Source: Valencia hispanica (Eukaryota; Chordata; Actinopteri; Cyprinodontiformes; Valenciidae). Taken from it: a stretch of DNA of 64,000 nucleotides. Location: positions 15,969,235 to 16,033,234 of the forward strand of contig OY747712.1 in the NCBI GenBank assembly GCA_963556495.2. Direction: 5' to 3'. The translations under genes and the position numbers were made by a program. Positions within the stretch are counted from its first letter, which is position 1; each line of letters starts with the position of its first letter. Below, in pieces: positions 5,164-59,030 of the stretch. A model generated the notes under the pieces. The model was not told the origin of the DNA, did no database searches, and saw only the letters and a list, made by a program, of their open reading frames with translations.

Positions 5164-6790
<1,627 letters not shown>

Positions 6791-28881: not shown

Positions 28882-30435
28882 CAGTGGCTTGCAAAAGTAT
28901 TCGGCCCCCTTGAACTTTTCCACATTTTGTCACATTACAGCCACAAACATGAATCAATTTTATTGGAATTCCAAGTGAAAGACCATACAAAGTGGTGTAC
29001 ACATGAGAAGTGGAACGAAAATCATACATGATTCCAAACATTTTTTACAAATAAATAACTGAAAAGTGGGGTGTGCGTAATTATTCAGCCCCCTTTGGTC
29101 TGAGTGCAGTCAGTTGCCCATAGACATTGTCTGATGAGTGCTAATGACTAAATGGAGTGCACCTGTGTGTAATCTAATGTCAGTACAAATACAGCTGCCC
29201 TGTGACGGCCTCAGAGGTTGTCTAAGAGAATGTTGGGAGCAACAACACCATGAAGTCCAAAGAACACACCAGACAGGTCAGGGATAAAGTTATTGAGAAA
29301 TTTAAAACAGGCTTAGGCTACAAAAAGATTTCCCAAGCCTTGAACATCCCACGGAGCGCTGTTCAAGCGATCATTCAGAAATGGAAGGAGTATGGCACAA
29401 CTGTAAACCTACCAAGACAAGGCCGTCCACCTGAACTCACAGGCCGAACAAGGAGAGCGCTGATCAGAAATGCAGCCAAGAGGCCCATGGTGACTCTGGA
29501 CGAGCTGCAGAGATCTACAGCTCAGGTGGGGGAATCTGTCCATAGGACAACTATTAGTCGTGCACTGCACAAAGTTGGCCTTTATGGAAGAGTGGCAAGA
29601 AGAAAGCCATTGTTAAAAGAAAACCATAAGAAGTCCCGTTTGCAGTTTTCCAAAAGCCATGTGGGGGACACAGCAAACATGTGGAAGAAGGTGCAAAACG
29701 CTATGTGTGGCGGAAAACTAACACTGCACATCACTCTGATCCCCACTGTCAAATATGGTGTTGGCAGCATCATGCTCTGGGGGTGCTTCTCTTCAGCAGG
29801 GACAGGGAAGCTGGTCAGAGTTGATGGGAAGATGGATGGAGCCAAATACAGGGCAATCTTGGAAGAAAACCTCTTGGAGTCTGCAAAAGACTTGAGACTG
29901 GGGCGAAGGTTCACCTTCCAGCAGGACAACGACCCTAAACATAAAGCCAGGGCTACAATGGAAGGGTTTAAAACAAAACATATCCATGTGTTAGAATGGC
30001 CCAGTCAAAGTCCAGATCTAAATCCAATCGAGAATCTGTGGCAAGATCTGAAAACTGCTGTTCACAAACGCTGTCCATCTAATCTGACTGAGCTGGAGCT
30101 GTTTTGCAAAGAAGAATGGGCAAGAATTTCAGTCTCTAGATGTGCAAAGCTGGTAGAGACATACCCTAAAAGACTGGCAGCTGTAATTGCAGCAAAAGGT
30201 GGTTCTACAAAGTATTGACTCATGGGGCTGAATAATTACGCACACCTCACTTTTCACTTATTTATTTGTAAAAAATGTTTGGAATCATGTATGATTTTCG
30301 TTCCACTTCTCACGTGTACACCACTTTGTATTGGTCTTCCACGTGGTATTCCAATAAAATTGATTCATGCTTGTGGCTGTAATGTGACAAAATGTGGAAA
30401 AGTTCAAGGGGGCTGAATAATTTTGCAAGCCACTG
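28882..30435 (+). mobile_element. Full-length Tc1-like transposon with 210-bp inverted repeats
   Basis: 1554 bp flanked by TA (28880-28881, 30436-30437). Terminal inverted repeats of about 211 bp (28882-29092, 30224-30435) begin CAGTGGCTTGCAAAAGTATT and stay highly similar throughout. A transposase frame lies between them. The best preserved DNA transposon in the window. Confidence 0.93.
29250..30218 (+). pseudogene. Tc1 transposase, open frame but first catalytic Asp lost
   Basis: Open for 322 codons from ATG 29250 (MKSKEHTRQVRDKVIEKF); family members are usually about 340. N-terminal helix-turn-helix blocks are intact (YKKISQALNIPRSAVQAIIQ, a GRPPELT linker, VTLDELQ). The second Asp (FQQDNDPKHKA) and the Glu (SPDLNPIENLWQDL) are present. 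After MWKKV the expected block with Trp-Ser-Asp-Glu is missing and the frame is shifted for about 20 residues (QNAMCGGKLTLHI). It returns at IPTVKYG. This fits a deletion of about 43 bp plus a second small deletion restoring the frame. Without the first Asp no strand transfer is expected, although the DNA-binding part could still bind the inverted repeats. Confidence 0.85.
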
Positions 30436-49802: not shown

Positions 49803-49918
<116 letters not shown>

Positions 49919-55724: not shown

Positions 55725-56358
55725 TGTCAGGGTGCATACAATACCCGTTTTACCATTTTATTACATTACCACAAACTTAGATGCATTTTAGTTGGAATTT
55801 ATTTGACATACCATTACAAATTAATGCACAATTATGAAGTAGTAGGAGAATTATGAGGTTTCCAATATTTTGTACAGATTAAAATCTGTCATTTCTTCTG
55901 ACACCCCTAAATAAGATCAAGTGTGACTAATTGCCTTCAGAAGTCATCTAATTAATAAATAATTAATAGCTTTCCACATGTTTTTATATTATGCTCAGTA
56001 TAAAAACAGCAGTTTTGTTAAGAAACTGAAAATGTGGAAGAAATTGCTGTGGTCAAATGCAACCAAAATTGAACTTTGAGGCCAGGATGCAAAAACACTG
56101 TGACAAAATAGCACTGCACATCATCCTAAAGAGAACATGACAATAAATTGTAGTGGTGGCAGCATTGTGCTCTGGGAATTGTTTTCTTTAGGAGGGACAA
56201 CAAAGCCAGTCAGAGTGTATCGGAAGATAGATTGAGCTAAATACAGGGCAAATCAGAAAAGAAAAGCTGTTAAATGCTGTTAAGGACTTGAGACTGGGGC
56301 AGAAGTTAATCTTCTAGCAGGATGGAAACCCTAAACATCACAATGGAATGGTTCAGGC

Positions 56359-58555
56359 CATGCATGACTGGTGTCCTATGGAAAGCCGTTTGAGGATTTA
56401 TTATATATCTTTGATATCCAACTTTAAGTCCATGTACTAGTACACACTTTGTCCTCACTAGTAAGACAATTTGGATCACTAGTATAACGACTAGGGTGGA
56501 CCAGTATAACGACTGTCTTTTTTCTACTTCTAGAGCCACTTTTGGTCTACTAGTGTGCAACCAAACATTGCTAGCAAAATACTGTTCTGCACTAGTGACA
56601 CTACTAGACCCAACTAGTAGGCATGTGTCACGCACTAGTAGCCTCCTGGACCCTACTGATATTGCAAAAAAGGCCCACTAGTAGTATTAGTAAGGCATTT
56701 TGACCTCACTGGTGCTACTGGTAAGATACAAAATGTCCACTAGTAGTGCTAGTGGGGTTTGTTTTTTCTTACTAGTACTACTAGTAACAGCGAAGATGCT
56801 CACTAGTATTACTAGTGAAAGCCAAAATGTCCACTAGTAGTTCTAGTGAGGATGTGTTTTACCTTACTAATACAACTAGTAACAGCCAAACAGTCTACTA
56901 GTAGCACTAGTGAGACTATTATCATATTAATAGTACTACAAGAAAAAGGCCAACGTGTCAACTAGTTTTACTAGTGAGGCATGTTTTACTTTACTAGTAA
57001 TACTAGTAAGGGCCAAAATGTGCAATAGTAGCACTAGTAAGTGGCAAAATATCCACTAGTAGCACAAGTAGGGGGCTTTTACACCTTACTAGTAGTACTA
57101 GTGACATCAAAAATGCTCACTAGTGTTAATAGTGGCACGGTTTTGTTTTTACTAGTGTAACTAGTAGAAGGAAATTTGTCTCAATAGTGAGCTTCTGAAC
57201 GTCACATGTAAAGGCTTTGGCTGTACTAGTGTGCATCTGCGTATCACTAGTTCGCAACTAGCACGCCAGTAGTATGCAGCTACACACTACAAGTGCAACA
57301 TTTCTGTAACATGTGGGACATTTCTGCACACTAGTAGGACAACTTTGGCATACTAGTAGGACAGCTACATCTTACTAGTGAGGCAAAACGTGCACTACTG
57401 GACAATTCTTAACCACTAGTCCTACTAGTGACATCATAAATTTCTATTAGTTAACATCTAGTGCTTCATTAGTAGTACTAATAGCACACAGATGTCAACT
57501 AGTGCGCAGGATATGTAAAAAGGTAAGACTACCAGTTACAATTTCATTTTTTTCTTTTCCAATCAGTACTAGCTGTTATTTGCTGTAGCAGCTTAAACTT
57601 AAAGAGCCAATAGGAATAAGCTTTAGTGCATGCTGTCCACACCTCCTCACTAGCATTTTGTTGAATTAATTCGACTAGTGCTACTAGTGGATAGTTGGAT
57701 CCTTACTTGTACTACTAGTGGACACTTTTGCCTTCACTAGTAGCACTTGTAAGATCCTAAATACCCCAACTAGTGCTCCTAATGGTTGCTCTGGCCCTTA
57801 CAAGTAGCACTAGTGATATCAAAAAAGTCCACTTGTAGTACTAGTGGGGTGTGTTTAAGCTTACTAGTACAACTAGTACGGCCCAAAATGTCCACTAGTA
57901 CTACTAGTGGACATTTTGGCTTTCACTAGTACTACTTGTGAGCATCCTCGTTGTTACTAGTAGTACTAGTAAGGGAAAACACACCACACTACTACTACTA
58001 CTGCACATTTTGTCTTTTGCTAGTAGCACTAGTGAGGTCAAAAATGCCTTACTAGTGCTACTAGTGGGCATTTTGGCTATACTAGTAGGGTCCAGGAGGC
58101 TACTAGTGCATGACACATGCCTATTAGTTAGGTTCAGTAGTGTCACTAGTGCAGCTCAGCAGTTTACTTGTAAGGTTTGATTGCATACTAGTAGGCCAAA
58201 AGGGGCTCTAGTTGTAGAAAAAAGACAGTCGTTATACTGGTCCACCCTAGTCGTTATACTAGTGATCCAAATTGTCTTACTAGTGAGGACAAAGTGTGTA
58301 CTAGTACATGGACTTAAATTTGGATATCACATATATCTAATAACTGTTCAAATGGCTTTCCATAGTGTCCTACCAGCTTTAGATGTGTCTCTGCTCCAAC
58401 ACAGCTGAGTCAAATGGTCTAACTACCTTCTCAGCATGTCAAACTACTGCATACGCCTGATAATGAACCCTCATTTGATTCGAATGTGTTGAAGCAGGGA
58501 ATTACTTAATACATGCAGGATACCGACCCTTGTGGACTGACTTTGGACACCACTG
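56359..58555. mobile_element. hAT-like MITE hosting the foldback element
   Basis: Flanked by GTTCAGGC (56351-56358) and GTTTAGGC (58556-58563), a 7/8 target duplication. It ends CTTTGGACACCACTG, a hAT-type terminus. Without the nested element it is about 200 bp (56359-56376 plus 58371-58555) and contains CTTTAGATGTGTCTCTGCTC, part of a MITE remembered as common in fish. Confidence 0.6.
56377..58364. mobile_element. ACTAGT-rich foldback element, about 2 kb
   Basis: TATGGAAAGCC at the left and GGCTTTCCATA at the right are inverted ends, with GTGTCC repeated on both flanks (56371-56376, 58365-58370). The arms are inverted copies: about 100 bp (56426-56527 against 58316-58214) are identical, with good similarity for several hundred bp more. 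I count about 60 ACTAGT hexamers, often paired as ACTAGTAGTACTAGT. A centre of about 130 bp (57541-57672) has none. Spacer words such as AAAATGTCC recur. No credible ORF: open frames within the arms are mirror images of each other. Superfamily unknown. Confidence 0.85.
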
Positions 58556-59030
58556 GTTTAGGCCAAAGTTTATTCTTTTTCTTTTTTTAATGGCCCAGTC
58601 AGAGTCTAAACCTATTTCCAATTGAGAATCTTTGGCAATACTTGAAAATGAATGCCCTGAGACGATCTCCTGCCAAAAAGAGTGAATGTGAGCTGTTTTG
58701 CAAATAACAGCTAAATTTTCGCCCTCTAAATGTGCAAAGCTGTTGGAGACATACAGTACCTCAAAATACTTCTAATTGTAACTACAGTGAAAGGTAATCA
58801 TTCAAAGTACTGAGTCAGGTTGGCTGAATACAAATGGATAACAGTTTTCTGATTTTTAGTATGATTGATATATAAAGTTTGCATACTAGGTATCATTTTC
58901 CTCCCAATTCACTATTATGCACTAGCTTGCCATTGTCTAGCATTCTAAATAAACACTAAAGTGTGTCGCTGTGATGTTACCAAATGTATAAGTACCATGG
59001 TTTCAATTCTTTTGTAAGGTACTGTACTTA

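Follow-up and report, generated by a model that had tools for sequence, protein, structure and literature searches.

Transposons of the IS3EU type are described with TA..TA termini and usually with 6-bp target duplications (PMC10045372), and for the fungal IS3EU families the published account gives TAYGG..CCRTA ends, a 6-bp duplication and inverted repeats of more than 30 bp (PMC12730594). One IS3EU entry (17838/2815133/0.21) stands in the portion of a teleost repeat table available to us. Two satellites in an oyster satellite table, likewise available in part, are labelled IS3EU.

A foldback structure has been suggested to arise independently in several lineages, and most foldback elements are placed in Mutator (PMC4079207). 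Galileo of Drosophila is a foldback of the P superfamily with long repetitive arms carrying several sites for its THAP transposase, which binds ~70 bp inside the element end and again in internal direct repeats (PMC3688188). Tetris, also from Drosophila, is a gene-less element in which long inverted arms with internal tandem repeats (units of ~220 bp) accompany a middle domain; its duplications measure 8-10 bp, and it has been assigned to Mutator (PMC4079207). Palindromic subterminal sites are known in piggyBac, where each monomer of the transposase dimer contributes one of the two C-terminal domains that bind them (PMC11707139). What the internal repeats of foldback elements do is, in the words available on Galileo, largely untested (PMC3688188).

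Extent, insertion site and arms of the element

The window, meaning the whole 64,000-bp stretch of DNA that was analysed, contains a foldback element of 1988 bp, of which one copy was seen. The element starts TATGGAAAGCC and finishes GGCTTTCCATA, and inverted arms of ~690 bp each surround its middle domain. The coordinates, ends and GTGTCC flanks given in the initial annotation were found to be exact. The features are listed below in order along the window, with the basis of each call in brackets.

56350..58564, no strand: host of the insertion, a small inverted-repeat element itself within a Tc1 remnant (bounded by imperfect repeats)
56371..56376, plus strand: left copy of the target duplication GTGTCC (read directly)
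56377..58364, no strand: the whole element, a probable non-autonomous foldback DNA transposon with IS3EU-like ends (ends, flanking duplication, IS3EU signature)
56377..57069, plus strand: left arm, with 23 exact ACTAGT (arm alignment, motif count)
56423..56527, plus strand: left copy of a 105-bp identical tract, with the first three ACTAGT, 21 bp apart (longest-run test)
56677..57165, plus strand: inner left lattice, made of near-ACTAGT pairs with a 9-bp offset, repeated every 31-33 bp (motif positions, tandem periods)
57070..57673, no strand: middle domain of 604 bp, whose 13 exact ACTAGT all lie in the first 434 bp, leaving the last 170 bp with none (motif count)
57674..58364, minus strand: right arm, inverted, with 24 exact ACTAGT (arm alignment, motif count)
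57674..58065, plus strand: inner right lattice of paired near-ACTAGT, repeating every 31-32 bp except for a single 64-bp step (motif positions)
57797-57847 / 57892-57942: smaller inverted repeat nested in the right arm, with 51-bp arms at 86% (self-comparison)
58214..58318, minus strand: right copy of the 105-bp identical tract (arm alignment)
58365..58370, plus strand: right copy of the target duplication GTGTCC (the partner arm of the host MITE has a single GTATCC at the matching place)

The outer flanks match the other Tc1 element of the window (frame 29250-30218), and a small inverted-repeat element lies in between. This small element is bounded by the imperfect repeats GGTTCAGGCC (56350-56359) and GGTTTAGGCC (58555-58564); we take it to resemble a teleost hAT MITE. 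Across the point of insertion, one arm of this small element can be aligned with the other, GGTGTCC-then-TACCAG facing GGTATCC-then-TGCATG, with 47 of 71 columns identical, a score that none of 2000 shuffles reached. The partner arm of the MITE has the corresponding six bases only once, so the simplest account of the two GTGTCC copies is duplication of the target. As GTGTCC starts with G and ends with C, the boundaries could formally also be drawn as CTATGG..CCATAG ends flanked by TGTC, a duplication of 4 bp. On the simplest account the order of insertion is Tc1, then the MITE, then the foldback element. The fish origin assumed in the initial annotation agrees with this Tc1 and MITE content. 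The initial proposal, a foldback DNA transposon that duplicated 6 bp of target, is supported by our results and strengthened by the nested insertion site. The frame at 29250-30218 is itself a Tc1-like transposase frame of 322 codons, with Pfam matches to Tc3-type, Sleeping Beauty-type and DDE_3 domains.

Alignment of the two arms (56376-57069 with 58365-57674) gave 81.6% identity over 697 columns. Identity amounts to 84% in the first 50 columns, varies between 80 and 92% up to column 450 and falls to 63-81% beyond. The perfect identity of about 100 bp reported earlier corresponds to a run of 105 identical columns, the longest from arm to arm, beginning at column 47. The first 450 columns contain 53 differences; when these were placed at random 20,000 times, a run of at least 105 arose at a rate of 5e-05; as so long a run is rarely random, the two arms have probably exchanged sequence with each other. 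Base changes in the outer arms (first 450 columns, counted from 56377 and 58364 inward) comprise 26 transitions and 25 transversions, a ratio that would be unusual if vertebrate DNA had simply decayed neutrally. Folded as a single DNA strand, the element holds 428 arm-to-arm pairs together with 371 others.

We detected no ORF of at least 110 aa (ATG, GTG or TTG start) within the element, in agreement with the absence of an ORF from the initial annotation. Pfam gave no match at E 0.01 in 13/58 stop-to-stop frames overlapping the element, the 13 scanned frames including the longest one (123 aa), which runs past the left element end; a coding remnant was rejected on this result. A second copy of the element was absent from the window (blastn, E 1), and a distant-similarity search of plasmid DNA returned no match to it.

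Relation to IS3EU transposons and to described foldback elements

The termini TATGG..CCATA fit both TA..TA and TAYGG..CCRTA, GTGTCC is present on both sides of the element with one counterpart in the opposite arm of the host MITE, and the inverted repeats, described as longer than 30 bp in the fungal families, extend over 697 columns at 81.6% identity. Since the ends and the 6-bp duplication fit the IS3EU signature, the element is most likely of a non-autonomous IS3EU type, a class assigned from ends and duplication alone. Among the TAYGG..CCRTA pairs lying 40-6000 bp apart in the window, it is the sole case with identical 6-bp flanks. The long inverted arms, the internal repeats and the lack of recognised coding place it structurally among the foldback elements.

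The element thus shares its TATGG..CCATA ends, its 6-bp duplication and inverted repeats of more than 30 bp with IS3EU and GingerRoot. Unlike the element, these transposons are described, in the portions of the accounts available, with mention of neither foldback arms nor a dense palindrome array, and the element in turn is without a transposase gene. The initial annotation knew of no family described in this way; the kind is nevertheless a known one, as the ends and the duplication fit IS3EU, and long repetitive arms are known, from the accounts at hand, in foldback elements and in Galileo. Among the literature matches listed, neither a fish foldback nor an IS3EU foldback appears in titles or abstract openings, and Repbase or Dfam may contain a family consensus. 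If the assignment is true, an IS3EU foldback would add a further lineage with foldback architecture.

Counted inward from either end of the element, the first ACTAGT begins at a distance of 60 bp, near the position of the first site in Galileo (63-80) and of the sites in the P element (41-63) (PMC3688188). The repeats of Galileo contain two further sites, as against the 60 ACTAGT found here (PMC3688188). The element is similar to Tetris in being gene-less and in having a middle domain between long, internally repetitive inverted arms, and differs from it in unit length, duplication length and probably superfamily (PMC4079207). The palindromic subterminal sites of piggyBac and piggyBat are few, unlike those of the element (PMC11707139).

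Two candidate classes were tried and rejected: a Mutator-type foldback such as Tetris, given a duplication of 6 bp rather than 8-10 bp (PMC4079207), and Dada, which is described in the text available as having no terminal inverted repeats and as targeting small RNA genes, whereas the element has inverted ends and sits in a MITE.

Number, spacing and conservation of the ACTAGT sites

Exact ACTAGT occurs 60 times inside the element and 10 times in the remaining 62,012 bp of the window, which bears out the initial count of about 60 copies of a motif rare elsewhere. The excess over chance is also real, although the expectation of fewer than one copy was too low: 1000 dinucleotide-preserving shuffles of the element contained on average 3.8 ACTAGT, with a maximum of 12. 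The site can be extended to YACTAGTR, the preceding base being T or C in 87% and the following base A or G in 95% of cases. With up to one mismatch allowed in each half, 32 pairs of ACTAGT lie 9 bp apart, and both halves are exact in 13 of these. The spacer AAAATGTCC occurs three times on the plus strand and once on the minus strand, in 4 of 23 listed spacers; paired copies with recurring spacers, as first described, are present.

The 249 pairs of ACTAGT with a separation of at most 140 bp group without exception at discrete distances (9, 21-23, 30-33, 40-44, 50-55, 62-65, 71-74, 83-87, 92-96, 102-106, 113-118, 124-128 and 134-137 bp), with nothing between. Among periods of 8-14 bp, the best was 10.4-10.5 bp in each of five parts of the element, which are not independent, the two right-hand parts having 2 sites in common and the right arm mirroring the left. 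The mean cosine for the left arm plus the middle domain was 0.73. No value above 0.36 came out of 2000 random placements, for which periods were scanned more coarsely; this control ignores tandem duplication. In a duplication-aware control of 5000 trials, the step order was kept, while the pair offset and the lengths of two founding units were random; a value of 0.73 was reached in 3.4% of trials, or in 4.4% with the offset fixed at 9. Since phasing is reached in 3-4% of these trials, the evidence for a phased binding array is moderate and not decisive. The array of protein-binding sites suggested in the initial annotation would agree with the 10.5-bp phasing, a support tempered by this same control.

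Repeat units of ~21, 31-32 and 95 bp lie near whole helical turns, and whole-turn unit lengths are favoured only moderately. Tandem periods of 22, 31, 64 and 95 were detected in the element; FB of Drosophila has arm units of 10, 20 and 31 bp. The inner left lattice includes one irregular stretch (56906-56961) and a higher-order period of 95 bp, in two copies, within 56729-56913, and the steps of the outer left arm are 21, 21, 71, 42, 22, 21 and 43 bp. The 23 listed spacers differ in sequence; 15 of them measure 16 bp, six 17 bp and two 18 bp, a uniformity of length that is partly selected because the list comprises only steps of 28-36 bp (23 of 31).

Comparing the arms over all 696 columns, we found differences at 17 of 186 motif columns and at 103 of 502 others. 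A ratio this low was obtained in 2.9% of simulations (1.5% with one mismatch allowed), and no circular shift of the motif mask yielded as few differences. The contrast stems mainly from the inner columns 450-696, where 10 of 90 motif columns (11%) and 59 of 150 others (39%) differ, a contrast seen in 1% of simulated runs and in none with one mismatch allowed; this inner conservation is suggestive only, as the motif may itself have drawn the alignment together there. In the outer columns 0-450 the motif was not clearly better kept (differences at 7 of 96 motif columns and at 44 of 352 others; fraction 0.22 in the simulation), and with one mismatch allowed the contrast was gone (19 of 153 against 32 of 295, fraction 0.67).

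ACTAGT arrays were also encountered in microbial DNA. Viral contigs gave 12 loci (8 + 4), with none from further viral scans, and bacterial or archaeal contigs 115 reported stretches, 80 of them listed, for a total of 127 retrieved loci; blastn of the element against the retrieved bacterial, archaeal and viral loci found nothing at 1e-4. The arrays in L009-L012, L060, L064 and L074 are short simple repeats, the bacterial ones with a 9-bp period. Short ACTAGT minisatellites, often of 9-bp period, occur in the bacterial contigs of L060 (1862-2750), L061, L078, L080, L101 and L114, many of these contigs being from Prevotellaceae or other Bacteroidales, and L060 has up to 22 ACTAGT sites within 2 kb. 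These minisatellites show no blastn similarity to the element of the window.

Possible roles and origin of the array

The reading that we prefer, and to which we give about an even chance, is that of an IS3EU-type non-autonomous cut-and-paste transposon with foldback arms, in which the ACTAGT array would provide putative recruitment sites for the transposase. A transposase encoded elsewhere in the genome would cut at TATGG..CCATA, and ACTAGT would be the internal recognition site of this partner, recruited by the YACTAGTR palindromes that start 60 bp inside each end. The sites recur every ~2 or 3 helical turns and would lie on roughly one DNA face, which would allow several dimers to sit side by side, and adjacent dimers may hold both element ends together. 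Such an array may have been built by repeated duplication of units of ~21, 31 and 95 bp and refreshed by sequence copying between the arms. An extra internal site is reported to restrict piggyBat (PMC11707139), and so regulation rather than help is possible for the array. The occurrence of one palindrome ~60 times at near-helical spacing makes the idea of a binding array directly testable, with one motif, one candidate transposase class and definite expectations for altered spacing. More tentatively, the IS3EU-type foldback arms might act as a one-faced lattice, in which a multimer or filament of transposase, nucleated on the ~60 palindromes at whole turns, would bring the arms together along their full length before cutting.

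We consider it possible, at clearly less than even chances, that the array of the same IS3EU-type foldback has no binding role and is a by-product of unequal exchange within the arms, of template switching or of slippage that enlarged a minisatellite, the 10.5-bp rhythm being inherited from one or two founding unit lengths. Slippage as the source of the amplified motif was the alternative put forward in the initial annotation. The tandem periods of 22, 31, 64 and 95 are as expected from such growth, random founding units reproduce the phasing in 3-4% of trials, the motif is not clearly better kept than the spacers over the outer 450 columns, and the 105-bp identical tract suggests exchange between the arms. 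Less easily explained are the outer left steps, mainly of 21-22 bp and not 31, which nevertheless peak at 10.4 bp, the spacers that vary in sequence while keeping a length of 16 bp (15 of 23), and the inner columns, where 39% of non-motif and 11% of motif positions differ.

It is rather unlikely that the element is a foldback of some other superfamily (Mutator, P/Galileo or one undescribed) with IS3EU-like ends by chance, a reading that overlaps the others. In its favour, the classification used the ends and the duplication alone. Galileo's superfamily has ends and a duplication that differ from the element's, and P-type duplications of 7-8 bp do not match its 6 bp. Most foldbacks have been placed in Mutator (PMC4079207) and Galileo in P (PMC3688188), which fits another superfamily, whereas a 6-bp duplication with TATGG ends matches the available IS3EU description (PMC12730594), and Tetris, Mutator according to its authors, duplicates 8-10 bp (PMC4079207).

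A role of the array towards something other than a transposase appears slightly more doubtful still: a host DNA-binding protein might use it to silence or activate the element, or its phased motifs might serve to bend the DNA or position nucleosomes. Phasing at 10.5 bp also suits bent or nucleosomal DNA, and 13 of the 60 sites lie in the middle domain, far from the ends; against this, the sites begin symmetrically 60 bp from both ends, as end recognition predicts, and we know of no host factor for ACTAGT. Finally, that there is no transposon at all and the locus is a palindromic satellite or a misassembly is very improbable, for despite the strong internal repetition the duplication flanking the element is exact, the ends are symmetrical, the host element is recognisable, the arms are 18% diverged and the insertion site largely contradicts it. 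A simple satellite was rejected in view of the arm alignment and the insertion into the host MITE.

Perfect tetranucleotide arrays are also present in the window, with 55.5 copies of TAGA at 5164-5385 and 27.8 copies of TGTC at 49805-49915.
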